DNA from: Branchiostoma floridae | Lineage: Eukaryota > Chordata > Leptocardii > Amphioxiformes > Branchiostomatidae | Assembly (NCBI RefSeq): GCF_000003815.2 | Contig: NC_049987.1 | Coordinates: forward strand, 9,584,944-9,648,943 | Direction: 5' to 3' | DNA length: 64,000 nt | Part shown: in pieces, positions 4,904-52,600 of the stretch | Layout: every line of letters begins with the position of its first letter | Numbering within the stretch: the first letter of the stretch is position 1 | Made by a program: the position numbers and the translations under genes | The notes under the pieces: generated by a model | Database searches by the model: none | Told to the model about the DNA's origin: nothing | Seen by the model: the letters and a program-made list of their open reading frames with translations, nothing else

Positions 4904-7900
4904 TCAGGACATACATATAACATCTCTATCTGCACAAGCGTTTGCATGGTCCTGGATAACAGATGGAGGAAACCTCACAGAACATATGGGGCAGGTCACC
5001 AGTCTTGTAGGAGCCATGTAGTAGTCATCGTGTCGAGATCCACAAGGTTTGGAAGGACTCGGTAAGTCGTCATCCGGTGAATCGCCAGTACATTCTGATG
5101 CATGCGCCTCAATGATGTAAGAAGGGTACTTTCCTGAAAGATAGAAATAAACATTCGTACCTTGAGAAAAACACATCTTACAATGTACAACTTTAAAATA
5201 ATGGACAGCCACTCCATCGGAATGTACAACATGAAGTCAATGAAGGTTAGACATCCAGGTAATAAGATATGCCAAATAGCAGTATGACTGACAAAAGATA
5301 ACAGATGTTATCTGAAACGTTTGACCATTTCCATAATCATATCCAGTTGCTTGAGTAATTGCTATTTGACATATACTATGAAGTGTTCATCCCATTCAAA
5401 TTATGAGTCCCTTATCTCATCTAGTTAAGCCAACTTGAAACTCAGGGCTGTCTCCAGGACCCATCCCTCCGTCCTGGGATAAAAATTTGCTTGTTGAGAC
5501 AGACAAAATTTTATCCTGTCTGTTCAAATTCTGAACTTCACAACACGCAATCACGGAATTAGTGCTTAAACTGGTAGATGTAACATCGAAAATTAATAAT
5601 ATACTAATAGGCCACGAAACAATGAGTGGGATGGAAAAAAGTTTAACACTGGAGACAGTCATGTTCAAACTACTCCCATATTTGTGAAAAGAATTTTCTG
5701 TAATCCTACACACATGTAAGTTAAAGTTAACCTACCTTCACATATTGGACACTCTGCCAAGACCGCTGAAGCCTCTGCACTGTGCGGCTGACTCCCAGAG
5801 GAACTCTGTGAACAGGACGGCTCCTCATCCATGACTTGTGTGTCACCAACAGGGTACATACTCCTGCAGGAAGTTAACAAAGGTCTGGATTAGAAATCAT
5901 CTCTGTGGACTACATACATTTCTAATGATGGGTTCAGAGTAACATGGTAATGGAAATACTAGTATCTAATGTAAGGTCATAACAGAATAAGAAAAATGGA
6001 ACAGGGCAGAAAATCTGAAATGCAGTATGCTTATACTGGGCATGAAAGACATCTATGGAGCACCCTACTGGCAGAAAAGGGAACTGCAGCCTCAAGAACA
6101 CTACTTCAGTCACCAGTATGAGTAGATCTATTGGGTGTGTATGAGAGTCAGAGTACCATTGGGCATATGTGCTTACATCAAAATATAGAAATGAATAGAT
6201 ATATATTGAGTGATATATATTGGAGTAGGGCTCCATGAATTGCTGTTGTGTTTCACAAAGGATTCAGATTTGATAATTTTTCGTCATAATCACCTGTTAC
6301 ATCTCTTGGCTCTCTTCTTTGCCGACCCAGCAGCAGATGTTGCCTTCCTTCCACGCCTCTTGGGAGTTGGTTTGCTACAGCTTGCCTCAGCTATGTCATC
6401 AATCTGCTCACATGGCTGATTCCCATCTCTCCTGTCCACAATGCTGGCTAGAAACGATGCCCTGAGCTGTCTGCTTGTTAATGCACTGTCTGCATTGTTC
6501 ACCTCTACAGCTGCAGTCGTTGGCAGGGGCTGGGGCAAACTGGGCTGTTTTCTTTTCCTTCCTCTTTTGGGCGTCACCTCCGTCGAGGGGAGTTTCATGG
6601 GAGTTACTGTGTTCTTCCGTTGTGTGTTGGTTTTATTCGATGTGTCTTTCAATACTGATACAGCTTCACTGGACGGTGCTTCTATTCCTGGATGTTTGGT
6701 GGAGCCACCATTTGCCTGTTGTTTGGTCCCAGCTGAGTCTTTGGTTTGAGAGAAGTACTGTTCCAGGTACTGTTGGGTTGTCTGCAGGAATACACGCTTC
6801 TCTTCTGTAGTCAGCTTACGCCCAAGGATCTGCTTGTACTGGGTCTTAAGGTCTGGAAGACAACGGATGATAAGAGGGTTAAATTCTAAGAAGGTACAGA
6901 AGCCATGATTAAATAAAATATCTATTACACGACCAACAAAATCTACTTCATAGCATTGCAGACTACTCTTACTTGTACCACAAAAAAATACATATGATTT
7001 TGCCAGCACTAAATAAAACAATAAAAAAGTACCCTACCTGAGTACATCACATTGTCCATGTCCATCTTTGTGAAATCCAGGCTTCCCAGAAACTTCAGGA
7101 CTTCAAACTGTTGAGAAGGGAGACAACAAAATGTTAATTTAACGACTTTGGTCCCTTTCATATAGGAAAGAGGGCTTTGAATAACAGTGCAGTACAGAGG
7201 CTATGTCACAGGCTGTAACAGAATTATAGAGACTGTTACAAGGAGCTTCTCTGATAATGGAAACGCCATCAGACAACCTAACATTTTTAACTCTGTCTGA
7301 GTCTAGGTCCTTTCTTTCTCAAGTTTCCAACCAGTTTAAGGGCTGGTAAGAGGAAATAGAAGCTTTTAAACTTTCTGTACTAGAAGATCACTGTGCTACT
7401 GTTCTTCAAGGACTTTGTGAAACGGTGAAACAACAGCCCATCCCACCTGGTTTACTACACCAGCAGGTGTATCTGCTGTTCTGTCCCCTTTGGTTTGTCT
7501 GTTCTTCTGTTTGCTGGCAGCTGCCACCACCATCCTCGCACTGCGCCCCAGGTGCTCGGAACCATCCTCTGACGTCCCTGCCATTTTCAGCAGTCTGCTT
7601 TTTGTACTCTCTATGCTCTCATTCCTAAAAGGCAGAGAAAAAATGGATAAAGGTGTGATAACATTCAGAACAAGGTAGGAAGTGTGAAATTTGTCTTTCT
7701 AGTTCTATATTACAACATTTCAATGTCATGTTATTTCAAACTGGATAGTGAGTGTCAGCAGTGCTCAAAATTCCCACTTGCACACTTGCAAACGGAACCA
7801 CATTTTGCTTGGCACAACTTAATTTCGAACCCAGGCATTTGGAACTTACTTGCATAAATTTTTGTACTTATGTCTTGATAGGATACAATATATGTAGTGA

Positions 7901-10900
7901 CATGTAACTGGAAGAAAAGACAATGGATACCAATAGCTGATCTGAACAAAGTAATACTAGTAACTTGGAGATGGGGCAACCTGAAATGTTAATGGAGCAA
8001 CCTGGCTTTTGACTGAGGTTAGCTGAAAAAGTATTTCTAACATGGCTGATACATGTTGGTAAACATATGTAAGTTGCAGAACTCACCACTCTGTGGAAAC
8101 ACTTGCTTCTGTGCCTGGGGTTTGGGGAGGTGCAGTACTTTCTCTTCTGGAGCTGCTGTTGTGCATTGCCTTTGTGACAGAAGATACCTGAAACATGGAG
8201 GGAACTACTGTGATGATTTGTCATTGGTAGGCTAGGAAAGAAACTACAACAGGGCTTTGGATCTTTTATTCAAGGACACAAAAAAGTGTTATATCATCTG
8301 ATTAACATTGAAAACCATACCGCAACTCTTGGACTTTGGGGACTGCTAGTAGGAACATCTGTGTTAGGAGTACGCAGTCTCAGAAACGACAGTCCGAACG
8401 GCATGTCCTTGCGGAAGGGTTGACGACAGATGATACGCACACGGTCCCACATCTCACTACGCCCCTCTTCTGACAACAGACCTGTGTGGAACAATCAAGT
8501 CTTAGTAAAAACAGCAACACATTTGTAAACATTCATCAAGTTTTATTATTAGTATTTTAGTACTTGTAGCAGTATCTTTTGTCTGTGCTCTGTTTTATTT
8601 ACAAACATGTAAAAAAAGCCACTGAAATAAACTGGGCAGAATGGAGGTGAATAGAAGTTAACACTCGCCTGACAGGAAACAACAGGCGATAAACCAGATA
8701 GTGAATGTGAGTGTGTGACAATGCTCAGCTATACTTCACTAGCAAGTCAAGCATACTAGGATACATGTACAACAATAATTTGTGAAGCATATGGCATTTT
8801 CTAAAATCTGTAAGAGAGAGCCTTACTTTCATTGAACATCCGTACAACCATCTTGTTCTTTCCTGCTTTGCTCTCCATGGGGTTCATGAACATCGTTGCG
8901 GGCAGAAGTGTCACATACTCCTGCGAGCGGTTCCAGGACGACCGTCCGACAAGCAGCTCCACATATGCTGAACCACAGTTACCTGTAAAAACAAACAAAT
9001 TTGAGTGAGCTCGACTTATTGTTCACCGTTGTTGTGTCATAATGGACTGAGTCACATTTAAGATTGCATTCTCCTTGCCACAATGCCACAAGGAATAGGA
9101 GATTTCTTACAACCTGAGCAAGCTGAAAATCTGCGAGGAATTTCTAACAACTACAGCTTGAGGAAATGCAATTCATTACAATATGCCAGGCTATTCCAAA
9201 AAGTATGACAGGTAGCACTAACACACATGCCTGAGGTAGGATGCAGCCGTGCATACAGCAAGAATAGGGCTATTTAATGAGTGTGCCAAAACAAACTCAG
9301 AGAATGCAAATAGAGTGTGACAAAAAGGATAGTCTGAAATGAGTTCATAAAGATGAGTTACCGATGTCCACATAGCCGATGTGGTAGGCCCTGTCCAGCT
9401 GTAACTCTGCCTCCATGACCCCTGACCTGTCGTCAGAGGCGCACAGCCAGCGTTTCCAGCTGCCTCCCTGGGCTGTCAGCAGGTTGTCCACCTTGTGGAC
9501 AGAGTCCTGAAATGGCATAACAACATATGATTAGGCAAATTAGCTTAAACTAAGCTTCTTGCTCAAGTATTGGACTGTTAAAAAAATCATGGTAGATCAT
9601 AGATAAGGGGGGAAGAAGTTGTATTACTTAGGCGGTAGGGTTCAACTGGGTCTGGATTGGAACCAGGGAAAGTTGGAGCAAATTTATTGGATTGGTCCTA
9701 AGGAGTGTTTGATCAATTTTGCACTAGGAACAGGAAGGGTTTTGACCAATTCTGGATCATAACCCGGGAGGGTTTGTGCAATTCTGGATTGGAAGTAGGG
9801 TAGGGACAAAACAGATTTTGAATCTCTTCCACAGACCAGTCCATTGTATCAGGGCACTGGGCAAACTTCAGTACTTAGTACTTTAACACCATGCATGGAG
9901 TTACTCAGTTAGGAACCTGTTACCAGATGTCGGAAAAGACATACCAGAGCTTGTGCGTTATACAGGATGATGGCCATATTCCACAATTCAGATTTTGACA
10001 AAGATTATAGATGGACACATTGGATTGTCTTTCGCAGTAACAGATCTTAACTTTGGACAATTGTTATACAGAAGTACAGTTTGAAAGTTGCACAGGGGAA
10101 GTTAGAGTGCTAAAACAACTGTCTAGCTCTGCAATCAAGGAACAATGACATTTCTATGCATAATTTGATACGTCTCTTACATGCAAATGTTTTTAAGTCC
10201 AAGAAAGTCAAAGCAGAACAATAGCACGATTCTTGTGCTAATTATTCTTTTGTTTTAGTTGGTAGTGTATATGCAAATTTATGGGGCCCTGTCTATGACA
10301 CTTGTCATTGCACCTTTCATAAATTCTATGTCTGGAAAGGTTATAAGCAAGGGTTATAAGTAACAAGGACAAAATTTGCTATCCTTGGAAGTAAGGACTG
10401 CTACGTAAATGGATATCTTGATACCACATACGGTCGAGGGAGACACAGCGCAGACTGTGCTGGACCAATGGGCCGTTCCAAAAAATAAATGTGGAGGGGG
10501 GGTGAAGAGGTTGGATTTCCAATTGCTCACCCNNNNNNNNNNNNNNNNNNNNNNNNNNNNNNNNNNNNNNNNNNNNNNNNNNNNNNNNNNNNNNNNNNNN
10601 NNNNNNNNNNNNNNNNNNNNNNNNNNNNNNNNTCATAATTTTCATCCTATGAACTTGCCCTTACATGTACTGTAACTGAGATAGGAGTAAAAGTATCCAA
10701 ATCCAGATTTCTTGACTTTTTGGTAGAAAAACCCATATCCAGACTTATCTTGACCCGCGCCGTTCAAACGAAATCCAAATCCAAGATTTCCTTGACCCCC
10801 CTCAGTAAAATCCGACCTCTTCAACCCACCCCCCACATTTATTTTTTGGAACGGCCCAATCTTGACACCTCAGATCGACTATGCCTTCCTTTGAAAATTC

Positions 10901-11331
10901 CTAGACCGTATGTGGCGTATGTGCCATCCTGGTATAGATCCAATCCTACATTACCATTGTCATCTTAACAGTTAACTACTAAAATTTCGAACACTACCAG
11001 GTCACAGCTATGATGTTGTCACCAAAACTGTCTGCTAGTTCGTGCTTTACGCCACACAACAAGCCCACTGCGATCTATATTTCGAGCTATAGCTACGCGA
11101 AACTTCAAACTCCAAAATTCAACTCCGACCGCCCCTCCCTCTCCATATATAGACAAGGATAACGAAAATTATCAGGCGAATCGGGCTATAAGATAAAGCC
11201 ACTGATCATCACAATTTCAACGCAGTTTAGAGACTCATCTAACAGTTTGATTGTACTCTATTTCATCGCTAAATCTTCATTCTTACCTGCGAGCTGTAAG
11301 ACACCACACACTTCACAACAACCGGCGCCAT
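4904..11331 (-). CDS. XRCC1 N-terminal-domain protein with tandem UBZ4 zinc fingers (10 exons, complete)
   Basis: Exons in transcript order: 11331-11287, 9506-9362, 8982-8827, 8481-8321, 8187-8087, 7624-7447, 7107-7038, 6852-6294, 5863-5736 and 5133-4904. All are bounded by AG/GT, all phases agree, and the product is 590 residues. Residues 1 to about 160 match the XRCC1 N-terminal domain without gaps at the start: VVSYSSQDS, then VDIGNCGSAYVELLVG and MWDRVRIICRQPF. XRCC1 is the single-strand-break repair scaffold and binds Pol beta through this domain. Residues 170-500 are Ser/Thr/Lys-rich, with a short structured-looking stretch at about 263-320 and basic PKRGRKRK-like NLS motifs. Two C-x2-C-x11-H-x3-C modules end the protein: C510/C513/H525/C529 (split across exons 9 and 10) and C562/C565/H577/C581. 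Both fit the RAD18-type UBZ4 ubiquitin-binding finger. There is no BRCT domain, so it is not XRCC1 itself. It resembles XNDC1-type proteins. A nuclear repair role linking break sites to ubiquitin is inference. Confidence 0.85.
7757..8038 (-). repeat. Interspersed element in an XRCC1-like intron (CTCGAAAT family)
   Basis: This stretch lies in the intron between exons 5 and 6 of the XRCC1-like gene. It is a diverged, inverted relative of the element at 33357-33696: both carry matching blocks around CACATTTTGCTTGGC and GGGGCAACCTGAAATGTTAATGG (on the other strand in the second copy). The ends (AGTGCTCAAAATTCC and AAAAAGTATTTC) are degraded forms of the family's terminal inverted repeat. Confidence 0.5.
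10424..10915. repeat. Foldback (inverted-repeat) element containing an assembly gap
   Basis: The outer ends CCACATACGGTC (10424-10435) and GACCGTATGTGG (10904-10915) are perfect inverted repeats. Inner arms at about 10470-10522 and 10810-10857 are also inverted copies, sharing GGGCCGTTCCAAAAAATAAA. The 100-base gap lies between the arms. The element sits in the long first intron of the XRCC1-like gene and encodes nothing visible. It is a non-autonomous MITE or foldback element. Confidence 0.65.
10533..10632. other. Assembly gap (100 N)
   Basis: A run of exactly 100 N, a conventional size for a gap of unknown length. It is placed inside the foldback element, where hairpins probably blocked assembly. 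Confidence 0.95.
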
Positions 11332-12742: not shown

Positions 12743-15700
12743 ATGGAGGCCATCTCTGCAGTTGTCCAGTTGGCTGGAGGAGCCGTACTGACCACTCTGG
12801 CCTTGGCTGTCTTTGTCATGTACACCCAACCTGCCAACATTGTGCACTTCTTTCTGAGGTAAACATTGACAGCCATGACAGCCTCTTTTAAGAGGGAAGA
12901 CGTGTAAAGCTGGAAATACCCTTAGCTAAAAGGAATAATGTTAGCATGTTTGCATTCTTAACAGAATTTTTGTTAAGTCTGCTCAGAGCAAGAAGAATGT
13001 TTGCTGTTTTGAGACTTTGCAGAATATATGTTACTATTCATGTTAACGTTAAATAAAAAAAATTATTTCAAGAAAGAGTTGAAAAGTGTTCGAGGGGTGG
13101 TATAAAACTATCTTTATTCTTTGGCATCTCAATGCAAGAGATCACATCTGTTTTGCAAGGACAATTCTTCTAAGAGAGCATGTGTAGAGTTTTCTGAACA
13201 GCTCCTCTAAAGTTTTGACAAATGATGATTGACAGGTTGAACAAATGGAGGACGGGCTGTACCACTAAGTACGTGAAAGTGGGGGAGCAGCAGTTTGCTT
13301 ACATGGAGAGGGGCCGGCCCAGTAAGAACCAACCATCGCTGCTCTTCCTGCATGGCTTCTCCGACAGGAAGGAGACTTACTGTGAGATCATCATGGTCAG
13401 TGTTTTGTCTCATTATCTCATACATGATACTTGTTCTTCCTTGAGTTGTAGTCTACTGTAAATGCATTTAAGATCGCGGAGATTTAATTTTGCGGTAGCG
13501 GGACGAAGGACTGTTTGTTGTGGTTTTAAGTTATTGGACAGTAGTCCCTTACTGCCATGGAGAAATGTTCGCGGTGGTTTTAATTCGTGGTGAATTTGCA
13601 ACGCAAAAACCACAAACATAAAACCACCGCAAAAATTTCTGCATTTACAGTATGTAGTGGTCTTGTTGCTCATTTGGTGATGCTGTATCAAACAAAAAGT
13701 GACAAAGTCAACAGTCAAGAACTCTTTACCCGTGATTATATCACACATATTTAGTAGAGGTTGTGAAAGCAAAAACTATTCAAATATTTGCAGAAGGTAA
13801 ATAGACTTCTATTGTGCAATATATCAAAGTGTCCTTTCCCCTAAATTAGCACCAGTTAGATCACAAACAGCTGTACACATTTGTGTAACAAATTGTTTTC
13901 ACCTGCAGCATCTGCCCAAACACCTGCACCTGATTGCTGTAGACTTACCTGGACATGGAGACACCGGCATCAAGGCAAAGGCTGACCTGACTGTAGAGGC
14001 ATATGCTGCCAAGCTGCATCAGGTACAGTTTGTTAGGTAGAATCTTTCATCATCTATAGATTTTTTCCATGTTGTTAATTTGCATCGTATTTCAAGCATA
14101 CGAAACTGCATTTTCATCTATTCATGTCATGAAGTTCAGATTTTTGGGACAGATGGGGTGAATATTTTTCTCTGTCCCAGGAAGCAATTTTTTTTGTCCT
14201 CAGAGGAAGGGACAGTCCTGGAGACAGGCGTTTTCCACACGTTCCATGTATAAAGGGTGGTGCCCATCTCCATTTTTGCACCCTTGGGGCCACACAGGCC
14301 ACTACAGTATGGGGCTAGTCCATTGGTACATCTAGTGTAGAAATGAGGGATGTGCTGCATCTTTTTATGAAAAGTTAAAATTCTTTTCTTCACTATATGG
14401 TCATGCCATGTTTCTTTTCTGTTGAAAGTTCATCAGCGAAGTTGACCTTAACCATGGCCCCCTGCATATTGTCGGACACTCCATGGGTGGCGGCCTTGCT
14501 GGTTGCTACGCAGCTACGTATCCAGAGAAGATGTGGGCTCTGACAATGATATGTCCTGGTGGTGAGTGGTATTTGACACTGTTATAACCTGTTATGAGGA
14601 ATTAGACAAGTATACCTTCTTACCTACCCTAGTACAGAATACATCAAGTCATTTTTACTACCAATCAAGGTGCCATGGCTCCAGATCTGCATTTTCATTA
14701 GCTCCAGTGGTTAAGAAAAAAATCTTAGGAACATTTTCCAAACCTTTAATATCATCATCTTGATCTGTTCTAAAGTTCAGCTCTTATTCAACCACAAAAC
14801 ATCATGACAAAAAACACACATTATCAAAACAACTGTTTTTATTGCTCAAGTTATTCTTTTAGCAGGCAACTATTCAAACAGATACAAATGTCGAAGCCGT
14901 TGTATCCCTGGCAGAGTGTAGATATGAAAGGACAGACCTACCTTACCAATAGTAAGATGTTTTATTAATATGATGTAAACCATTTTAATTTTCGTTCTTG
15001 TCTTGACTTTTCCCCCACAGGTGTAAAGGTGCCAGAGAACAGTGTCATGTTTGAGAAGATTTTCCGGGGAAACAAACACGTGATGATCCCTGAGACTGTG
15101 GAGCAGGCAGAGGAAATGTTCAATATTTGTCTGTACAACAAATCACTCATACCTCCCAAACGGGTACGGAAAGGAAAATTGTCATTCTCATGTTCACATT
15201 GTTACATGCTTGAAAAAAGCATGTACTGTTTCTGGTAGGGATCTTTGTGATTCCGGACCAATATCTTTTAGAACCTCTGAATGGATTGCGATTTCCTTTG
15301 CTATGGGGATAGAGTGTGTGACCTATTGTGCTATTAAGTAGATTAGAAGTTTGCTGTTGTTTTGTGGTTCGTTTTAAAAAAAATATTTACACCCCTTTTC
15401 CTGATATGGAGTGATCTGGCCTCATTCCTTGGGGACAGCTAGCAGCTGTAACATGTGTTTTGAGTTTTCAGTAGCATGGGAGTGTGTGGAAGGGTGTTTC
15501 CAGTGCTATATCTCCAGAACAGAACGTGTGATTGTGATGATACATGTATTTACCTCCATGAAAAATGGAGGTATAGTTTTTGGTGTGTCTGTGTGTGTGT
15601 CTGTTTGTGTTTCCACATATTTGTGGTCAGCATAACTTAAGAACCTGTTGATGGATTGTAATGATATTTGGTATTTGGGTAGGTGTTTGGAAGACCAAGG

Positions 15701-18196
15701 AGCTTTGATAAAAGCTCCTTGGGAAGACGAAGCTCAAAGTCAATTTGGATTCCCTGGTGTGTGACCTTGGTACTGCAACAGAACTTGGATTTTTGTATCT
15801 TTTGACATGGATATGCTATGGTCTTGATTTTTTGGTGGCACATAGCTTGTGGTGTAAGGAAGAAGTGTTGTATGTTTGGGCCCTCTAGCAGCTTGCTCTA
15901 GAACTGCTTGGGCATTCTGGTCAAAATCTTCCAAGGAGCAAAAAAGAGCAACTGTGACCATCGCTGTCACCTCTGTATGGTGTGAATTACCCCCATTATA
16001 TACACATTGAGATACAATGTATGTGCCAGGTACAGGTGTAACAATAAGAAATAAAAATGAAATGGTGAGGACACCAGGAAGGTGTAGTTTTGGATCTGAC
16101 TGTTTACCATAGGTAGATATATAACTTAAGAACAATGATGGAATAATTTTGCCAAACGTCAAACCATATCAACCCCCACAACACACCATACGCACCATCA
16201 CAAAACAAAATATTTCAAGCAGGTTTGAGTTTTCAGACTCTTGTTTGATCTGAACCATGGCTGTCAGTGAAGTAGGGTTGTTGAAAAGATAACTGTTGAG
16301 AGATTGTTCCCTAAAATTATGAAAAGAAGATTGCTGACAAAAAATATTTTATACAAGAAGTGCCATCTTTTCTCTTGTCTTTTTCTCTGTGATTGCATGG
16401 CTGCGATGTTTTTATGTTGTTTTGTTTGTGCTTTTTTATCTAGTTTTCGTTCTGCTTTATCAGGTTCCCGGCAGCCTCTCAGCACAGCTAGTTAGGCATT
16501 TGTTTTGTAAAGTAAGGAATGCTTGCTTGCTTGCTTTAATATTTAAGCTCATCTCTGTTAGTGAGAGAATGCTTTGATTCCTAGCCGGCCTGCTGCTGAC
16601 AAAATCATTTCCAATACAAAATTTCTTACTAGTATCTCTCATGACGATAATGACAAATTTTATAGGGGTTCTGAAGCCTCAACTTCAGCCTGGCCAGTCC
16701 TAATCAACATTTTCCTACATATTATGTATTTGTGTTCTTGTCTTGTATATTTTTAATTTATTGTCCATCGATTATTTGGGGCCAAGTTTGTGAAAATTAA
16801 TAAAGATTGCGAACGATTGAAATAAAGCTGAAATTATAATTTAGTTCTCTCACTACAGGTATTACAAGGATATGTGGACTACTCCAAACCATACATAGAC
16901 TTCAACAAAGAACGTGAGTGTTACTGTGAAACCTTTAGATGGAAAAATTTGGGTATACACATTGCTTTCTTTAGCATTTGTACGTTTTAGGAAGCCATAG
17001 GTTCTCTGCTAACATCTTGAAAAGGTGATAATCATCTGTTATGTCAATCTTTCCACAAATTAAATTAATGTGGTAAATCTCAATGAATCACATCATGTTA
17101 CCCTTTCCACAGTTTGGTTTTGTATGATTGCTTTATTTTATCTTATGTTGCTGATATAACTTCTGTCCCAGTATTTGATGCTATGTTGGAACTTGGACAA
17201 GATGGACTGACCCCTTACCTTGGGAAGATCTCTACACCGACACAGGTGATGTGGGGAAGACATGACAAGGTGTGTGAAATGTCTCAGCTCAGACCAATAA
17301 ATTGTTATTGATAGCCTACATCAAAAATCACTTATTAATAAACAATTCCTCTGAGCTTTCAACTCTTGGAAATTTATACAATCAGTTGATATCGGAATTT
17401 TTTGGTGCAGCAAAAGACTTGCAGTGACTCACTTTCAATTACATGTATGTGATATCCTATCCAACACTAAATGACAATTCTTCTTACTTGAATAGTTAGC
17501 AATGTATACAACATGTTGGTGTCAGAATTGCACATTTTCTTGGAGTACGTGTGAATCAGGTAATTTTTTCTGCAGCAAAAGACTTGAAGTGACTCAATTA
17601 CATCAGGTACTGTTGGTGCCTGAGATCTGGATGAAGAAGTCCTGAGTTCCGATCCTGGCTATGTCACTCACCCGACATGCATGCTACTGAAAAGGGCGGT
17701 AGTCCCTAGGAGGGGACGTTAAGCCGTGGTCCACTGTTCGCTGTACTTGTTGGATACAATTAAGCTGTAAATACTGTACATTGCATCTGTCTTTTATGCC
17801 GCCGCCAGTCAAAGATTACATCATCTGTTCATTAAGTTCGTTTGAGCTAAACTGGTTCATGATATCTTTCACTTTTCTTCACAAATTGATAATAGATTCT
17901 AGCATCATATTAAATCATAAAATATATAAAGTAGCATTTATTTATTTCAAAGCAATGCCTGCTGCCATACTGTAGTTTTGAAGAGTCATTTCACCAAATA
18001 CTATCTGCTGAACTTTCCTGAATCTTCTCCCCACCAGGCCCTACACATAGCTGGCCTGGATGTGATAAAGAGAGAGATGTCAGCACCTCTGCAGGTGGAT
18101 GTTATAGAGGACTGTGGACACACTGTTGGCTTAGAAGCTCCCAAAAAGGCTGCTACGTTTCTGTTGAACTTCAGGGAAACCGTTCTCAACAAGTAG
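12743..18196 (+). CDS. ABHD6: ABHD6-like monoacylglycerol lipase, copy A (8 coding exons, complete)
   Basis: Exons 12743-12858, 13236-13395, 13909-14022, 14429-14561, 15021-15163, 16859-16913, 17172-17269 and 18038-18196 all have GT-AG borders and agreeing phases, and encode 325 residues. ABHD6 is a membrane-anchored serine hydrolase that cleaves 2-arachidonoylglycerol and related lysolipids on the cytosolic side of membranes. Residues 10-37 form the N-terminal membrane anchor. The oxyanion-side HGF motif is at 78-80. GHSMGG carries nucleophile S148, the same number as in human ABHD6. The acid is D272 in WGRHDK and the base is H301 in DCGHT. Length and residue order fit the family throughout. 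The closest paralogue is copy B downstream; exons 2 and 3 of the two are nearly identical while exon 6 is not. The start was chosen by homology with copy B and by the anchor that follows it. Confidence 0.9.
13454..13652. repeat. MITE with 13-bp perfect terminal inverted repeats
   Basis: The ends are TACTGTAAATGCA (13454-13466) and TGCATTTACAGTA (13640-13652). The interior is rich in GCGG/CCGC and GTGGTTTTAA/TTAAAACCAC blocks. It lies in intron 2 of ABHD6-A. A degraded relative may be present near 30035-30125. Confidence 0.7.
15551..15722 (+). repeat. Interspersed element end with hairpin, related to 19467-20550
   Basis: It begins with ACCTCCATGAAAAATGGAGG, a short palindrome like the one opening the 19467 element. 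A TGTGTCTGTGTGTG tract and an ...AAGAACCTGTTGATGGATTG block follow, as in that element. A 12-bp stem hairpin, CCAAGGAGCTTT-GATA-AAAGCTCCTTGG, is at 15695-15722. The 3' boundary is not clear and may lie several hundred bases further on. It is intronic in ABHD6-A. Confidence 0.45.
17606..17760 (+). repeat. Candidate SINE in an ABHD6-A intron
   Basis: A GC-richer block in AT-rich intron. It contains a B-box-like GAGTTCCGATCCTGGC at 17644-17659 and a core GGAGGGGACGTTAAGCCGTGG that resembles deuterostome SINE cores. No convincing A box was found. This is a recognition call, not a database match. Confidence 0.35.
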
Positions 18197-24721: not shown

Positions 24722-27700
24722 ATGGATGTCATCTCTACAGTTGTCCAGTTGGCCGGAGGTGCCGTACTGACCACCCTGGTCCTGGCTGGTGTACTACACC
24801 AAACCTGCCTACATTGTGTATTTCTTTCTGAGGTGAAGTAGTCACACACGCTGCTGCCATGGGTGTTGCCTACACTCTACCTTCTTCACTTACCTTTTAT
24901 TCATACATTGTTTTTGGCATTATACCTTAGTGTGGAGCCTTCCATCAGAACTCAATGACTATAATAATTGCAATTCAGTGCTCGAAATTCATTTTTGGGA
25001 TTAGGTGCATTGGTGCACCCAGCTTAAAAAATTGGGTGCACCAAAAACATTTTCGGTGCACCACTTAAATTTACGTGATAACCTAATAATAAAACTTAGT
25101 TACAAGCTATCAAATTCTTAAACAGTACCATGACAGACATCTTTATTATCTTTCTAACACGTACAAAACGTAGATGTCAAGAATATGATGTATACTAGTA
25201 TACTTTGATATCTTTCCATACATAAACGTAAAAAAATATTTGGGTGCACCCAGTATTTCGAGCCCTGAAATTGTAGGCAAAAACAAAAGTAACGAAACTT
25301 ACATATCATGTATTTGAAATCAATTTGGGCAAAACTGTAAAAAAAGATTTTGAAAAAAATATGCCAACAGGCCTCAAGTTTGAATTGATGTCTGTAAAAT
25401 AATGTGACAGGTTTAATACATGGAGGGCAGGCTGTACCACCAAGTATGTGAAAGTGGGGGAGCAGCAGTTTGCTTACATGGAGAGGGGCCGGCCCAGTAA
25501 GGACCAACCTTCACTGCTCCTCATCCACGGGTTTGCAGACAGGAAGGAGAGTTACTGTGACATGATCATGGTCAGTTTTCTTTTGCAATTTTTTTTTATT
25601 CGTGACTCATTATTATTATCATGACTTTTTCAGGAGTGATTTTTCTTCAACTGGAGTTTGATTGAAATCTTGTTCACCTAAAGAAGCTTAGGGAGTGATG
25701 GAATTGAGTTTGTATTTTGTTTATTTATTCCCTGTACCAGCTGGAAGCTCTTTTCGCTGCCGGCTGATTGAGGAGACAGTCCTTTGAGTTCCTCCATTTA
25801 AAATTCTTGACAGGGGGTGCATGATTCTTTAAATTCAAAGTCTCCTTCCCTATTGAATGCCATATCTCAAAATGTCAGAAACATACTCAGACTTGCAGTT
25901 GTACTATCTCCCCAGCTCTTTCAGTTTGAAAGGTTTTCTATCTTCAGTTTGTCTTTAAAAAATTCATCTTGGAAAAAGATGTACATCATCAATTCACACA
26001 ACATGTGCATCTTAATTGCTAAAAGTACCAATTGCCTAATTAAAGCAATTTTAGTCCACTTCCAATTTTGTAATCATATCCAGTTGCTTGACTAACTGCT
26101 ATTTGGTGTGCCGGTAAGTTATGTGGTTGTTCACATGCCTGTGTGTTGTTCTCACCTACAGCACCTGCCCAAACACCTGCACCTGATTGCTGTAGACTTA
26201 CCTGGACATGGAGACACCGGCATCAAGGCGAAGGCTGACCTGACTGTAGAGGCCTACGCTGCCAAGCTGCACCAGGTATGGGAAAAATCTTCTCTGGTGA
26301 ACAGGCAGTGTCTAATGTTAATGTTGAGAAAGACCCAGATAAAATATCAGCTTGGGTGTGTAGCCACCAGATTAGTGAATAAGATGTATACTTCACATGA
26401 TGCCCTTTAGGCCTGGCTATATTTATTTTTTAATGTTCATTTTTCATTACACATTATTGTATGAGAAAGAGGCATGCATGCAATGCATCTACAACATGTG
26501 CTCAATCATGATGTTGATCATTTTACAATGCAATCAAGGTTTTACTTTTTTTTTCAATTTGTAGTTCGTCAGTGCGGTTGGCCTTGACAGTGACCCTCTG
26601 CATGTCGTCGGACACTCCATGGGTGGTGGCCTTGCTGGGTGCTATGCAGCTTTTTATCCTGAAGCTGTGTCCTTACTTACTATGTCAGGTCCTGGTGGTG
26701 AGTAGCATAACTACCGGTATGTAACATTGAATAATATACTATTGCTGGAATGTTGGATGCAGGCAATGTTAGGAATGCTACATCATAACATGTTGATGTT
26801 GTGTACATGTACATGTACTAAATGCAAACACGGACTCTGCGTCTGTGTCTCTCTGTGTGGTCACACACACACACACACACACGCACGCACACATACACAC
26901 ACACACACACATACACACACACATGCACACACACATGTTTTATTTTACTATTTGTGCTTGGCCATTTCTAGACACATCAGCCAAAATATAAAGATAAGAA
27001 ACTCATGCTAATTGTTTTCCCACAGGTGTTAAGTCCCCAGTGCAGAGTCTCATGTTTGAAAAGGTCGCCCAGGGATACAAACAAGTGATGGTTCCTGAGA
27101 CTGTGGAGCAGGCAGTGGAGATGTTTAATATCTGTCTGTACAACAAATCACTCATACCTCCTAAACAGGTATGGAAACTGAAACTGTTGTTTTGTTTTGT
27201 CTTGTGTAAATAGATAACACACCAGCTTGATGATGATGATGTACATACCTACCGTACAATACAATACATTATTAAGTGTACATACCCTACAATACCTTCT
27301 TCTTCTTCTTCTTCTACCTCCCATTGAATGTGTAATAACATCTCTAAACATGTCTTTGTTTACAGTTGGTGAAAGGATTTTTGGACTGCTACATGTTACC
27401 TCGTTTAAGCTTCCTAAAGGAATGTAAGTGTCTAACAAACCATTATCAGTGTGATATAGTAGTAACTTGCATGGTGTCATTGTGACCATAAACTAGTAAC
27501 TTGCATGGTGTCATTGGACTGGTATCTCCTTAGTAGTAATGAAGTCTTTTTCAAACTCAGAGTCTGCAAAGTATAGTGTACACTGGCTGATACTTGGGCT
27601 TTATACAATAAGCTAAACTGGAAATTTTCTGCATTTATTTATAAGTTAACATTACTGACTTGTTTTGGTGTTCCTGTTCTAGTGTTTGATGCCATACTGG

Positions 27701-28398
27701 AACAGCAAGATGGCTTAACCCCTTACCTGGGCAAGATTTCTGCACCAACACAGTTGATGTGGGGAAGACATGAACAGGTATAAGAACTTTCCTTAAATTT
27801 CATGTCAGTTTTCTGGTACCAAAACTCCTGGAAAAGTCTTCTTCTGACTTCCTTTTTGGTTGTTGGAGCATGTTGAGTGTAGGTAACAATTTGTTATGAC
27901 TAAGTATGAGACAGTGACCCATGTGTGTATGTACAAATCAATTATAGATTCCTTAGGGAATTATCATTTTTAGCCAGGAAAAAATCTAAGGCATTAACTG
28001 CATTCGAATTTCCTGTAATCACCAGTGAATTACACCAAACTAATACATAGACTGAATGCAGTTGATTTGGAAAAGTCAACGTTACCCTGTAATAATGGAC
28101 ACGCAATGGTCTCACCGTACCGATTTTACCGCTTGCTGTTATGTTCTGGTCATTGCGCTTTGTGTACGGAAGGGGGCGCTGTCGCACAGCTTGGAACTTT
28201 ACTAAATTGATGATGTTGTGTCCATAGGTACTGCACATCACCTGTGTGGATGTGATACAGAGAGAGATGACAGCGCCCCTGCAGGTGGATATCATTGAGG
28301 ACAGTGGACACACCATTCCGGCAGAGTCTCCTGAAAAGGCTGCAAAGTTGATGTTGGGCTTTAGAGATAAATTTGTCAATAAGCAGAACAAAAGTTAA
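24722..28398 (+). CDS. ABHD6: ABHD6-like hydrolase, copy B (8 coding exons; frameshift in exon 1)
   Basis: Exons 24722-24832, 25411-25570, 26162-26275, 26565-26697, 27026-27168, 27366-27423, 27683-27777 and 28228-28398 mirror copy A, with intact splice sites and phases. About 327 residues would result if exon 1 were in frame. It is not. Relative to copy A, exon 1 is 5 nt shorter, best explained by two lost codons plus one extra G near 24788-24789. From the ATG the frame therefore leaves the membrane anchor and does not join exon 2 correctly. Exons 2-8 are otherwise open. The HGF motif, GHSMGG nucleophile and SGHT histidine are present. The catalytic acid position reads Glu (WGRHEQ) instead of Asp. 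This is either a real but altered gene with a local sequence error or a young pseudogene. A 21-base upstream ORF at 24702-24722 overlaps the start by one base. Confidence 0.75.
24976..25267. repeat. Interspersed element with CTCGAAAT-type terminal inverted repeats
   Basis: The left end is CAGTGCTCGAAAT and the right end is TATTTCGAGCCCTG, inverted copies of each other with two mismatches. The interior has repeated GGTGCACC blocks. The termini match the element at 33357-33696, but the interiors differ. It lies in intron 1 of ABHD6-B. Confidence 0.6.
26866..26936. repeat. CA/GT microsatellite
   Basis: An interrupted (CA)n run in intron 4 of ABHD6-B, with occasional GC, AT and TG interruptions. 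Confidence 0.9.
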
Positions 28399-38274: not shown

Positions 38275-39366
38275 TCATTGAAGTATGAGCGTTATAAGGA
38301 CTATCCATAAGCTTATACACGTACAACTTAACCGATGACCACTCCCAACATCAAGTTCAGCATATCCCGGAGTAGTCGGAGGTAGTGTCGCCACCTCGAA
38401 AAGCGTAATGCTCGCTTCTTTGACAGCAACACTGTTCGTAATGCGACATATGTACTCCCCAAAGTCTCCGTCCCTAACATCCCTGAGCTCCAAGATCAAT
38501 GTTCCTGTCGATCTGCCGGTAGACTCGTATCTCTGTCCCTGTGAGATCTTGCGGTTATCTTTGTACCAATCCAGCTGTGTCGCAGCCGGCAAGGCATCCA
38601 CGTCACATCTTAGCGATGTCCTTCCTCGCAATACCGCCATAACCTCAGACCGCTGAGGGGCCACCGTTGGCACGTAATGGACCTCGAAATCCATCACTCT
38701 GTTGTCTGTCGGCGAAACATTGTTCGAAGCCAGGCAGCTATACCGTCCGGACGCGGTGCGGCTGACGTTCGCCATCAGTACCGTGCTATTCCGGAAGAAC
38801 ACGCTGGCCTTACCATGTTCCCCGAGCTTCTTCCATATGACATTCGGTACAGGCTTGCCGGTGGCAGTGCAGTTAAAAAGTGTGTCTGTCCCCTCCTCCA
38901 CTACTACTTTCTGGCCATCCCTGACTTCCAGGCCATTCACTGTCATAGACTGCACGGTGGGTGGTACCAAGATTGTCAGGTCCCCAGAGGAAGAGTTGTA
39001 CCCCGATGAGAAGTATATCACGCACGTGTAGGTGCCTTCATCTGCTAGGACGGTAGGCTGGATATGGAGATCGTACTGCCTGCCTGTGTTGATGAGTGAC
39101 ATGCGATTTTTGTCGGCCAGTAGGATGTCGTCCCCCATGCTTACAGGGATGCTGTTCTTGACCCAGCTGACTCTGGCGTCGCCCCTGTTCTTGACCGTGC
39201 AGCGGAGGATGGCTGGCTGGCCGACGATTGTGTCCACGTTAGCGACGGGCGCAGCAAAGCCAGGATTCTGCTGACAGTGCCCCGTGGTGACCCACAAACA
39301 GAGGAGAAGTGTTGCCACCAGCCAAGACATCCGCACAGCGTTTAGTACTACCAGTAGCCCCATCAC
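38275..39366 (-). CDS. Intronless three-Ig-domain cell-surface protein, probably GPI-anchored (IgLON/lachesin-like)
   Basis: A single uninterrupted ORF of 363 codons. Residues about 14-31 form a signal peptide (MSWLVATLLLCLWVTTG), so translation may start at the first Met or at Met13. Three Ig domains follow, each with the cysteine pair and core Trp: C56-C115 with W68, C166-C211 with W178, and C254-C307 with W267. The DEGTYTC, SGRYSC and FGEYIC motifs are typical. Five N-glycosylation sequons are at N124, N165, N193, N200 and N216. The C-terminus is a hydrophobic stretch (about 349-363) after a small-residue GSG, with no cytoplasmic tail, which fits a GPI-attachment signal. Order and linkers (LVPPTV) resemble lachesin and IgLON adhesion proteins. 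Those genes normally have many introns, so this may be a retrocopy or lineage-specific member. Exact orthology is not assigned. Confidence 0.85.
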   Translation of the reverse strand: MMGLLVVLNAVRMSWLVATLLLCLWVTTGHCQQNPGFAAPVANVDTIVGQPAILRCTVKNRGDARVSWVKNSIPVSMGDDILLADKNRMSLINTGRQYDLHIQPTVLADEGTYTCVIYFSSGYNSSSGDLTILVPPTVQSMTVNGLEVRDGQKVVVEEGTDTLFNCTATGKPVPNVIWKKLGEHGKASVFFRNSTVLMANVSRTASGRYSCLASNNVSPTDNRVMDFEVHYVPTVAPQRSEVMAVLRGRTSLRCDVDALPAATQLDWYKDNRKISQGQRYESTGRSTGTLILELRDVRDGDFGEYICRITNSVAVKEASITLFEVATLPPTTPGYAELDVGSGHRLSCTCISLWIVLITLILQ

Positions 39367-43433: not shown

Positions 43434-46400
43434 TGCACCAGTCCTGCTGGCTGGAGGGGGTACACTGGTGTCTGTAGCTGCTGCGCTGTTCGTGTACTAT
43501 CTCCGTCCTGCTTACATACTCATCCTACTCAGATGGTTAGCCCTCAGACCATTTTTTTTTATAAAATACCTTATAGTTAGTATACATGTATGTAAAGAGT
43601 TTGAAAGGGCTATGGCTGAGGCAGTTCAGGATGTTCCTATCAAATAAGAACTTTTTTGGCACTATTGACAGGATGTTGAATTTCTCTTCTGATACTGTTG
43701 TGATTAAAACGATATTATAAGTCTAAGAATGCTACATACCCCGGTACTAGTATCATAATCTTCTAGTATGCAGTGGAATGTCAATAATTGATTTGCTATC
43801 CTTTAGGTAATAATAGTAATATGCATATGGGAATTGAGAGTAAGTGAGTGTGTGAGTGAGTGAGTGTGTGGGTAAAGGAGAGTGAGTACACTTAAGAGGG
43901 CATTCATGCATTTTCTGACGATTTCTTCATTCCAGGGCCATATGTAGATTATTCTGTGGCAAAACATAGCGACCTGTCATATTTACTCATCAAAACATAC
44001 TGTATTTCAGTAGATTATAAACTCCTTCGTGTGTTTTCCTGTGTTTTCCGGTAAAAAGGCTGACCGGGCATTCATGTACTTGTCCCTTATGATGCAGGTA
44101 CAATGTGTGGAAGACAGGTTTCAAGATCAAGTTCATTAAGGCAGCAGGAAGACAGATTGGATACATGGAACGAGGACAGCCGAAGGAAGGGGAGCCTTCC
44201 ATGTTGTTCNNNNNNNNNNNNNNNNNNNNNNNNNNNNNNNNNNNNNNNNNNNNNNNNNNNNNNNNNNNNNNNNNNNNNNNNNNNNNNNNNNNNNNNNNNN
44301 NNNNNNNNNNNNNNNNNNNNNNNNNNNNNNNNNNNNNNNNNNNNNNNNNNNNNNNNNNNNNNNNNNNNNNNNNNNNNNNNNNNNNNNNNNNNNNNNNNNN
44401 NNNNNNNNNNNNNNNNNNNNNNNNNNNNNNNNNNNNNNNNNNNNNNNNNNNNNNNNNNNNNNNNNNNNNNNNNNNNNNNNNNNNNNNNNNNNNNNNNNNN
44501 NNNNNNNNNNNNNNNNNNNNNNNNNNNNNNNNNNNNNNNNNNNNNNNNNNNNNNNNNNNNNNNNNNNNNNNNNNNNNNNNNNNNNNNNNNNNNNNNNNNN
44601 NNNNNNNNNNNNNNNNNNNNNNNNNNNNNNNNNNNNNNNNNNNNNNNNNNNNNNNNNNNNNNNNNNNNNNNNNNNNNNNNNNNNNNNNNNNNNNNNNNNN
44701 NNNNNNNNNNNNNNNNNNNNNNNNNNNNNNNNNNNNNNNNNNNNNNNNNNNNNNNNNNNNNNNNNNNNNNNNNNNNNNNNNNNNNNNNNNNNNNNNNNNN
44801 NNNNNNNNNNNNNNNNNNNNNNNNNNNNNNNNNNNNNNNNNNNNNNNNNNNNNNNNNNNNNNNNNNNNNNNNNNNNNNNNNNNNNNNNNNNNNNNNNNNN
44901 NNNNNTTGGTGCCATTGGACTGGAAAGTTTCCACATAGTGGGGTGCAGTATGGGCGGTGCAGCAGCTGGTTGCTATGCTGGTAGTCATCCGGAGCTGGTG
45001 TCTGCTGTGACCATGATGTGTCCTGCAGGTATGTTACCTAAATGTAGCCTGGTATCCAGCCGTAATATAGCTCCAGAGTCTCGAGAGCTATATTACATAA
45101 TTGTGAAGAGGAGAGAAGAGACTCGGTAGCTATATTATGGCTAGATACCAGGCTAACCTAAATGTACTCTCCAAGCACAGGCTTGGCTCCGGCTGTTTTT
45201 TTAATGTTTTTCTAGGCATTTTATAAGGCTTTCTTTTTTGTAACATTTTGTTGATGTCTTACGGCCGCAAAATAGTAAGCCTGATAAAAACGCCTAAAAA
45301 AACGTCAAAAAACAGCTGGAGCTTTGAGAGTAACCTAAATGGCCTTTGGTGATGAAGGGTTTTAGTATTGGAACTGTCACATTCAAATGTTATTTGTAAT
45401 GAATGTTCCACTTGCAATTTTACACAGAATAAAACAGAATAGCCTCTCACTGTTGGTTGACTCCTTTTGCTTGCAGGTGTGAGAACACCACCGCTGGAGC
45501 AAATAGGACCCCTACTGATTCCAGAGAGTACTGCAGATATAAAGGAGATGCTGGACAGAGTATTTTACAACTGGAAGACTGTAGAGCCACCTGAAATGGT
45601 GTGTAATTCTTCCCATTCTATTATGAAATCAAATAGATATGGGTGCTATGATTTGCCCCTGCGGATCATCTTGATTTTCAATGGTCATCCATAGATTTTG
45701 TGCCGACTCCACAGAATACATGCACGCATTCAGTTGTTACACTGTACTTGTCTGGCTCTGGGCTTATCTCCAAGCAGATCCTACATTAGCACAAGATAGT
45801 ATCAAAAGCAGTGTAGCTGGCCTAGGAGTGTTCTTAGCTACCTTACCGTAGGATCTGCTACCCAAGGTAATCAAGAACACTCCTTGGCCGGCTACATTCC
45901 TTTGCCAGCTTTTGATACTATCTAATGCTACCATAGAATCTGCTTGGAGATAAGTTATGGGCCGTATTTCTTTCATAGCTCTTTACATTGATGAAACTGG
46001 TGGTTTCAACAACTCAATGCATTATTGTTATTGTTTATTCACAGATTCTGGAAGGTCTGTTAGAGCTACGGAGACCTCGTCATGACTTTTTCAGGAAAAG
46101 TAAGTCTTCAGACTGTTTTACATACTTGTACATTATTCTAGAGGTTGAACACATGAGATGGCTTAAAGCTCTAAGTCCTTTACAACTTTCTACAGCCTGG
46201 CATTGGCATTGAGTTAGTGGTAATCTTTAGGATAGTTTGTTTCTCTGGTCACATAGAAATTTAACTTCCTATTTTGAAACTGTGATATCTCATAGTATGC
46301 TTTATGTGCAACTGCATTGTTGAGTATGACTTCTAACTACAAATGTAAAAATTTCCTTCCCCTGCAGTGTTAGAAGAGTCCAAGAAAACCCCAAACATAC

Positions 46401-48920: not shown

Positions 48921-49336
48921 CTGTGTTATAATATGGTGCAGGCCTGGAAAATATATTGAGATGGAGCTGTGAATAAGATAATTCTTCTGCAAATGCAAGT
49001 CCCATACAATGCTTCTTTGCAAAAGAATTTCAACCTACCCAATAGAAAAAAATGGTGACTTACTACATAGTAATTAAAACACATTTATTGTCTGGCCACC
49101 TGCTTAATGCTAGTACTATAGGATGCTAGAAGACAGAAGGGCCTGGAGACAACTCTCCATCTTCATGGCTACCTTGTCCCCTCAACGACCAGGAGGTCAA
49201 GGGACTTGGTAGGCAGGTAGGTATAGGATGCTATGATCATTACTGTAACAGTAATACTTGAAATGTGTGCAGAACTGCAGATTTCATGAAAAATAGTACT
49301 TTTCTGGTTACAAGATATGGACAAAATAACACTCAC

Positions 49337-49686
49337 CTTGGAAGACTTAGTTTGTGGCTTGGCCTCCTCTTTTGGCTTGTCTTTCCCTGCCTCACTTTCA
49401 TCCTTGTTTTTAGACTCTTCATTCTCTGACTTATCTTTGTCCCCAGAACCATTCTCAGACTTACTGTTGTCTTCTGAACTCTCTTCTTCTTCTTCATCTG
49501 ATTTTTTTGAGTCTTTGTCTTTACCTTTCTTATCATCTTTCTTTTTGTCTTTCTTATCATTCTTTTTGTCTTTCTTATCATCTTCTTTTTCTTCTGTGTC
49601 TTCTTTTTTGTCTTCCTCACTCGTTTCTTCCTTCTCTTGTTTCTTGGCTTCCTCTTTGGGCTTGTCTGGCTTTTTATTTTTCCTTC
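49337..49686 (-). repeat. Purine-rich low-complexity coding exon
   Basis: On the coding strand this exon is almost entirely A and G, with repeated GATAAGAAAGACAAAAAG units (encoding DKKDKK). The plus strand is correspondingly a polypyrimidine tract, clearest at about 49490-49640. It is part of the RPGR tail. Confidence 0.8.
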
Positions 49687-52600
49687 CTGTGATTAAAAAA
49701 ACAACAGATTTTGCTGGAACTGCTGATATTAAAACAAGATATTTTGTTATGAGGAAATTCTTTCTACAAAGTCACACCTTGTATCTATTTACATCAATTT
49801 GACAATAGTATAACTGGAGTGTGATGTGATGTTGAGCATGCAGCTTTGAAATCATGATTTTAAATCCTGAATAGAAAAACGTGACGTAAGAAAGTTCCCC
49901 AGTCATGCAAACAAAACCACAAGACACATGACAGATTAGTACAAAGGAAAACACTGAAAATTGATATGTTGTTGAGTACCAAAAAGTGATGCAAAGAAAC
50001 CAGGTTTTTCAGGAGGTGGTCCGTCTGTCTCATCTTTGTCTTTCTTAGAAGATTCTGTTGAAAATAAGAAGGCACTCATCAAAATCTGTGTCACTATCAG
50101 AAAACACTACTGGGCAAAAGGTTATGTTCTATCCCCAGATTTTCAAGACATGGAAGTATAGAAACATTTCAGTACGGAAATTTAACTATCAGGTTATTCC
50201 AGCTTGAATTTTCCTCAGCTGTCAGTCTCAACCATCGTTATGCCCAAGTCACCACATTTCAGTACCAAGGACATGACCCAAGTTGGAAAAATCCCATCAA
50301 ATGGTTCCAAGAACACAGAAAAAACTTACAGGGATGTTTTATTGATATTAAGAAAATTCAACATTACAACTTACCATTCACACATTTCACAAAAATGTTG
50401 ATTCATAAAATAACTAATAAATGAAAGAAAGAAGCACCTTTTTTATCATCCTTATCCTTGTCACTTTCAGAGGTGTCTTTGTCACTTTCCTCCTCTATAT
50501 CTTTCTTGGCCGACGACTCCTTATTTTTAGAATCATCCTCTGTTTCTTCAGAATCTTCTCCAGATCCACTTTCTGCATCATCTTCCTTCTCTGCCTTCTT
50601 TTCTTCAGATGAAGCTTTCTTGTCTCCCTTTTTCTAAATTGTGGTTTAGAAATATTGATACTTCTCAGAGATTTGAACTCTTCACATGCAGCTGATAGAC
50701 TCTCTCAGGTCTAAACCAAGTTGAAGGGCATATTAACATTAGCATAGCTTTTGCACAGTATTTTGCTATTCATGAATGTGAAGGGTATTTCTTCCATTTT
50801 TTTTTGCTGACAGAACAGCATACAAAGAAACAATCTAATCCAACCTTCCAAAACAAATACACAAATGATGCAAAAAAATAATATCATAATATGGCAAATA
50901 AAAACAGCTACTTCTACATAAGTGTACTAAGCAAAGGTAGCTTTAACAAAGTGACTATCACCTTTGGTGGGGCATGTCTCTGGTCATTATCATCTGAGTC
51001 ATCGTCAGATTCATCTGAATCTGTTTCTGAATCACTCTGTGAAGGAACAGCAGTGTGTAAAGCATGGGTGAAACGTGGCAAAAAGCTCCTGTGAACACTA
51101 GGTAGTCAGAACTTTTTCAAAGAAAGCACACTATTCTGCAGTAACTATATTCTTTAAAACAAAAGTCTTGATAGTGACTGGCAATAAATGCAACTATTTT
51201 GATAGTGAGAAGATGATGAGCAACTCGCATATATCTACGCCAAGGGATTTTATATAATGTACAGTGTCAGTAGAAAAATATAACATAAGTCTACAGAACA
51301 GACCACAAAGGACTGCAAACAGATATTATTCAAAGAATTTCTGTCTCGTCAACTAAAGAATCTTGTGAGTACAAGGTGCATTTACCTCCGAGCCATCCTT
51401 ACGTGCCTTGGGCAAGTCTGCTGGTCTGACTAAAGACAGCTGTTTTGTCTTATTGGCTGGGTTTTCCTTCAGCACATGTGTCTGTAACAACAGGTGCCAG
51501 GGTGAATTGGTGCACATCAAGCTACAATTATTTGAAACCAAGGAAGTGTAATCGTCACATGTTGAAAGTCAAAATCAGCTGAAGGAGTACAGGGTGAAAG
51601 GTGAGCCCCAAGCCCCATTGCAAGCATTTGATCATCAAACTGAGGAAGACAGGGTGTGAAAAATATGTGACTCCATTTTGTAGTTGCCATTCTCCTAGGC
51701 ACATTATTGCCTACAGTCTACACAAAATACTGCAGGGAGGCTCTGTTAAACTGTTGCCTCAAACCAGCTGTCAGTCAATCAGATAAATGCAAGCCAAACA
51801 TTTACTAGTACATGTAGTTAAAGCTGATTGGCTGACATTAACCTAGTTTGATTCCGCACTCCAAGGTATATTGTATAAGCCGTGGCAAGGCATTGCATAC
51901 ATATAGGAGAATGGAAGTTGCAAGATAAGGAAAAATTACCCTCCCTAACTTATTACCCTACAGTGTTTTCCCTGATCACCTACCTTGTTCAGGTCTGAAT
52001 TTTCCCCACTCTCCTCATCGCTCTCCTCTTCACTCTCTGACTCCTCCCCTGAGTCGGAATCCTTCTTCTTCTTGTCTGAAAATTTTGACTCTTCTGATAA
52101 GTATGTCAAGAAGCATCAAGACTTAACACAGAACAACTGTATACTGTAATAATACTCATATCTTTAAAAATTTGTGTGTAATATTTGGAGAAAATGTCTC
52201 AAGATAATGAGCCATGCATGAGTCAGTTCTAGTCTCCAACAAAATTGAGTAAAAGTCAAGAAAATACAATTACAAAGAGGCAAGAACATGATGTACTGGA
52301 AATTTTATAGGCACGATAAATGTTGCAAAATCATATTCAGTTGCTTGAGCAATTGCTTGTTGGCGTATCTTATTACCTGAATGTCTAATCTTCATCAACA
52401 TGGCATGACATATATCTATACAAGATATGGAATCATAAACTGTATGCAATGACTGGTTAAACTTTGCACAGTACATTTGTCCTATTAGACAGCATGTTAA
52501 GAGGGAAGTGAAAAAAAATCCCCTTACCTTTTTCTGAGAGCGGAGCAAGTAGCGGCTTATCGAGTGGAGCTAGAAGTGGTTTATCAAGAGGCTTAAGGGC

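Follow-up and report, generated by a model that had tools for sequence, protein, structure and literature searches.

The 64,000-nucleotide stretch of Branchiostoma floridae contig NC_049987.1 analyzed here (positions 9,584,944 to 9,648,943; hereafter, the window) carries on its minus strand, from 11331 to 4904, a gene whose ten exons join in phase to encode a predicted protein of 590 residues, with GT-AG boundaries at 9/9 introns. An XRCC1-type N-terminal domain (XRCC1_N) and two C-terminal fingers of the pattern C-x2-C-x11-H-x3-C are combined in this protein; the combination is present in the sequence, and the ten exons probably constitute one gene, as modeled by their phase. We favor, with a probability of about 0.55, the interpretation that the gene encodes an adaptor that has XRCC1_N but no BRCT and that docks partners through a tail of paired UBZ-like fingers. 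The ten in-phase exons had been described in an earlier sequence-only reading of this DNA, and the reconstruction agrees with it. All the splice sites used rank at 0.93 or above when compared with the GT or AG candidates in a 10 kb stretch, including the exon 9 donor (0.995) and the exon 10 acceptor (0.997). The components of the gene, in window coordinates, are the following:

11287..11331, minus strand: exon 1, with the start codon and residues 1-15
9362..9506, minus strand: exon 2, XRCC1_N
8827..8982, minus strand: exon 3, XRCC1_N, carrying Tyr70 and Thr88, which correspond in position to F67 and V86 of XRCC1
8321..8481, minus strand: exon 4, in which the XRCC1_N match stops at residue 151 (window position 8375)
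8087..8187, minus strand: exon 5, linker, with a poor coding score in the kinase-trained gene finder described below
7447..7624, minus strand: exon 6, charged linker
7038..7107, minus strand: exon 7, part of a helical segment (257-324) predicted with low confidence
6294..6852, minus strand: exon 8, remainder of the predicted helical segment and basic clusters 380-388 and 449-469
5736..5863, minus strand: exon 9, ending just past the two cysteines of finger 1
4904..5133, minus strand: exon 10, remainder of finger 1, finger 2 and the stop codon
5090..5751, minus strand: finger 1, residues 510-529, interrupted by intron 9 (5134-5735)
4934..4993, minus strand: finger 2, residues 562-581

Intron 1 additionally contains, at 10424-10915, an inverted repeat around a run of 100 N, with 35-nt arms that are 94% complementary and outer arms of 16 nt, which looks like a small terminal-inverted-repeat element.

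The assignment of the N-terminal domain to the XRCC1 type was borne out by a hidden Markov model search, in which the Pfam family XRCC1_N (PF01834) matched residues 1-151 over its full profile (1-148 of 148; E 3e-48; 164 bits against a cut-off of 21). The best match to XRCC1 structures reached 6.8e-34. The claimed lack of BRCT domains likewise held, since none appeared among the six Pfam families listed for the protein (E up to 10), and none of the 11 matches listed for the single model PF00533 across the genome (513 Mb, 431 contigs), a search that scored the best candidates only, fell on C9, the 25.4 Mb contig that contains the window. A second XRCC1_N locus is located on contig C1, where a same-strand BRCT match follows 2.3 kb downstream, and we take this locus as the ordinary XRCC1 of this genome; its first five exons alone were assembled for comparison. 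Over 151 aligned domain positions, the window protein is identical to human XRCC1 at 67 and to the XRCC1 of its own genome at 65, whereas the latter two share 91; moreover, 0/4 of the intron positions compared coincide, the first lying two codons off with both introns in phase 0. On these values, the reading as a recent duplicate of XRCC1 was rejected. From the lower identity and the non-coinciding introns, the gene seems to represent an older XRCC1_N lineage of its own, in a comparison of three sequences that are too few to date the split.

Thus, the protein resembles XRCC1 in its N-terminal domain and departs from it in lacking a listed BRCT, in its intron positions, and in the residues of the Pol beta pocket. 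This pocket spans F67 and V86 in XRCC1 (PMC6614843), and the V86R substitution is reported as abolishing the interaction of XRCC1 with Pol beta (PMC12190888). Phe and Val are kept in the XRCC1 of this genome, and Tyr70 and Thr88 occupy these places in the window protein, which makes its binding of Pol beta uncertain. Following the domain, residues 168-500 yielded no Pfam family over the cut-off in the scan, and residues 254-331, searched in the genome, listed the gene itself as the only match. The basic clusters within this region resemble nuclear localization signals.

In vertebrates, XNDC1 (XNDC1N) is an XRCC1_N-containing protein distinct from XRCC1; the window gene may be its counterpart. 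In humans, XNDC1N represents an 'N-terminal part' and is accompanied by a C-terminal pseudogene, an arrangement which implies that the full XNDC1 gene has a C-terminal part. That the window gene is an ordinary, widely conserved XNDC1 orthologue with an undescribed finger tail is an even call, compatible with the other explanations considered here; in its favor are the separation of the gene from XRCC1 in the same genome, the C-terminal part just mentioned, and the zero PubMed results for Xndc1 in a 2026 survey of knockouts, in which the mouse mutant showed fused vertebral processes (PMC12876460). The human XNDC1N is described as a 'missing protein' whose ovarian staining is at odds with RNA data (PMC10775140). 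No relatives appeared in viral contigs searched with the N-terminal 155 residues or in prokaryote genomes searched with the full protein, a result of little weight, as these are non-animal collections.

At the opposite end of the protein, the exact C-x2-C-x11-H-x3-C motif occurs twice, as had been proposed, with starts 52 residues apart. Finger 1 exists only through the splicing of exons 9 and 10, and across the six reading frames of the window the motif occurs stop-free just once, as finger 2; exon 10 is therefore carried in the model by the motif itself. When the last 95 residues were shuffled 200,000 times, at least one motif arose in 249 cases and two motifs in none. The RAD18/UBZ4 label previously given to these modules found no profile match: no Pfam finger family exceeded its cut-off for the protein, the nearest being Zn-C2H2_12 (22.0 vs. 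23.2 bits). The PDB listing for the tail comprised 14 sequences, eight of which are ubiquitin-binding fingers, belonging to TAX1BP1 (four, best 0.0035), RAD18 (two, best 0.006), WRNIP1 (0.49), and FAAP20 (0.63). The match to RAP80 (0.15) was aligned over both fingers, and the remaining five are of other kinds (best, ZNF295 at 0.033). In the genome, the tail retrieved itself and one weak match (E 0.82), apparently irrelevant on translation.

The best of five single-sequence models of the tail (mean predicted local distance difference test score, pLDDT, 61.7, compared with 39-44 in the other four) displays two finger-like beta-beta-alpha units, with block pLDDT of 71-78 and very short strands in unit 2. 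Foldseek placed the UBZ tandems of TAX1BP1 at the top (0.019), with RAD18 at 0.68 and WRNIP1 at 1.9, none being below 0.001, and superposition on the tail model gave 27 columns at 1.1 Å for the RAD18 UBZ and 24 columns at 0.8 Å for WRNIP1; a second structure aligner added little. The 'UBZ4' label draws on the zinc spacing, the slight similarity to RAD18, TAX1BP1, WRNIP1, FAAP20, and RAP80, and the fold predicted from the single sequence.

The residues that contact ubiquitin provide a further criterion. In RAD18, the Asp that contacts Arg42 of ubiquitin is called critical, and it has been mutated in Pol kappa, where its replacement by alanine in the two fingers reportedly disrupts the association with ubiquitin (PMC8526622). 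In WRNIP1, that residue is Asp37, and Pro21-Val22 of the beta-loop contacts Ile44 (PMC4370504); FAAP20 carries an Asp-Ala-Leu set on one helix face (PMC4267625). The Asp of the RAD18/WRNIP1 class, two residues after the zinc-binding His, is replaced in the window protein by Ser527 (finger 1) and Asn579 (finger 2), and the Asp-Ala-Leu places of FAAP20 and Pol eta hold Glu523-Ser527-Thr530 and Gln575-Asn579-Ala582, respectively. The WRNIP1-type Pro-hydrophobic beta-loop is present as Pro-Ile in both fingers. Accordingly, the fingers share with those of RAD18, WRNIP1, and Pol kappa the spacing of RAD18, this loop, and, weakly, the predicted fold, but both lack the conserved ubiquitin-binding Asp, so the earlier typing stands for the spacing and not for this residue. 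With neither the RAD18-type Asp nor the FAAP20 set, they thus appear nearest to the UBZ 'third group' named in PMC4370504, whose binding mode that paper leaves unsolved. Ubiquitin is a leading but unproven candidate as partner of the tail.

Whether the fingers bind ubiquitin at all separates two other explanations. That they play a structural part, or that their partner is DNA or some other protein, as may hold for the C-terminal pair of RAP80 (UIMC1), has somewhat less than an even chance. The RAP80 pair is similarly spaced (starts 58 residues apart), and the Asp is likewise missing from its first finger, which matches the two window fingers at 9 and 10 of 20 residues, compared with 7 and 9 for RAD18; furthermore, the ubiquitin-interacting motifs (UIMs) through which RAP80 binds ubiquitin sit at its opposite end. 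However, comparisons of only 20 residues yield too few identities to settle the matter, and RAP80 finger 2 carries the Asp and shares just 5 and 6 residues. RAP80 is not known to contain an XRCC1_N domain. SLX4 and Pol kappa are also repair proteins with two UBZ4 fingers each, although their remaining domains are unrelated to those of the window protein.

The alternative of a true ubiquitin reader, whose fingers would bind ubiquitin as in RAD18/WRNIP1 or FAAP20 and bring XRCC1_N to ubiquitylated PCNA, FANCD2, or histones, is possible but doubtful. The exact zinc spacing, the retention of Pro-Ile at the Ile44-contacting loop, the predominance of ubiquitin-binding fingers among the PDB sequences listed, and the position of Glu523 and Ser527 of finger 1 at the places of FAAP20 Asp164 and Ala168 argue for it. 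These are countered by Ser527 and Asn579 at the Asp place, where alanine is reported to disrupt the Pol kappa association cited above, by Thr530 and Ala582 at the place of FAAP20 Leu171, and by Gln575 at the Asp164 place in finger 2. The earlier proposal that a polymerase-binding surface is coupled to ubiquitin signals retains its two building blocks, XRCC1_N and UBZ-spaced fingers, and is weakened by the replacements at both ends, Tyr70/Thr88 and Ser527/Asn579.

The gene model itself was examined with a simple exon-chain finder written for this analysis and run 27 times with four training sets and preset splice matrices. The exon 9 donor and the exon 10 acceptor (5736|5133) were joined, in a chain with the N-terminal exons, in 19/27 runs, which, together with the in-phase model, speaks for a single fused gene as originally claimed. 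The penalty for a forced break was 3.1-27.1 nats in introns 5 to 8 and 0.1-13.2 nats in intron 9. Training on a set that included window pieces chosen by codon scores from this gene itself, and hence not independent, yielded the exact model in four of five stricter settings and 9/10 exons in the fifth, each with one small upstream frame added; five lax settings gave 0/5, with extra tiny exons, other ends, and loss of finger 2. Several outcomes weigh against the ten-exon structure. The exact model was recovered in 4/27 runs, all from that one training set under the stricter settings, and exon 10 was whole in five runs and not in the other 22, usually through a splice at 5000 ahead of finger 2. 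Retraining on the XRCC1 exons of this genome (163 codons), or on these exons plus frames of the immunoglobulin and RCC1 types (582 codons), produced the exact model in 0/10 runs, missed exon 4 in all ten, and kept exon 10 whole in one. Retraining on kinase domains (16/30 loci, 4,174 codons; 14 were dropped for in-frame stops, mostly minus-strand matches) gave 0/7 exact models and no whole exon 10, shortened or split exon 4 in 7/7, and, under the strictest setting, stopped the chain ahead of exon 10.

Since exon 4, which is certain by homology, was missed or cut under small or kinase-only training, the finder is a blunt tool whose omissions carry little weight. Even so, both retrainings lowered our estimate for the adaptor from 0.60 to 0.55 and made an annotation artefact, in which two neighboring genes were merged or the true 3' end lies elsewhere, somewhat less remote than before. 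This last explanation is nonetheless improbable: seven AATAAA/ATTAAA words on the sense strand within the gene span, with none up to 1.6 kb past the stop, and the frequent loss of exon 10 favor it, but the dropped part holds an exact finger motif, finger 1 arises only from joining two very strong sites, and the same finder also failed on exon 4.

Other features occupy the remainder of the window. The C-terminal end of a protein-kinase frame lies at 1-1005 on the plus strand, with a Pkinase match directly before the window (C9:9583327-9584097); the open frame ends at 1003-1005, and its part within the window matched no Pfam family. Tandem copies of an alpha/beta-hydrolase-like gene, on the plus strand at 13249-18154 and 25424-28347, have four exon peptides that are 68-100% identical between copies, and positions 44111-44209 match one of its exons at 45%; Pfam support for this gene is weak (Abhydrolase_6, 0.053 in 1/4 pieces scanned). 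On the minus strand, a single frame of 309 residues with three immunoglobulin I-set matches lies in a GC-rich patch at 38365-39291, and RCC1-repeat exons (55652-55840 and 57256-57396) belong to a locus at 49331-57396 that also comprises long frames rich in acidic residues and lysine around 49.3-52.1 kb and that we take to be RPGR-like.

Returning to the favored adaptor, its N-terminal beta-sandwich would dock a repair protein, though not through the exact Pol beta pocket of XRCC1, while the basic clusters would carry the protein into the nucleus. The paired UBZ-like fingers would hold a second partner, which could well be ubiquitin or a ubiquitylated protein of repair or chromatin bound in a mode other than that of RAD18, such that finger-based recruitment would take the place of the BRCT-based assembly of XRCC1. 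The protein may share an old XRCC1_N branch with vertebrate XNDC1. No XRCC1_N protein with UBZ fingers was found described in the open-licence literature, judged by titles and the beginnings of abstracts, in agreement with the earlier remark that no protein of this exact architecture is known to have been described. A bolder extension, which we consider rather unlikely, is that XRCC1_N with paired UBZ-like fingers represents the ancestral form of XNDC1 as a whole animal family that is still unstudied. It would be a further scaffold of the XRCC1 type, brought in not by BRCT contacts but by ubiquitin or a ubiquitin-like mark, which the fingers would bind in a new mode. If the favored adaptor reading is right, animals would possess a second XRCC1-type scaffold with zinc-finger docking in place of BRCT, the fingers would offer a natural example of UBZ-like modules devoid of the canonical ubiquitin-binding Asp, and a first testable function for XNDC1 could follow.
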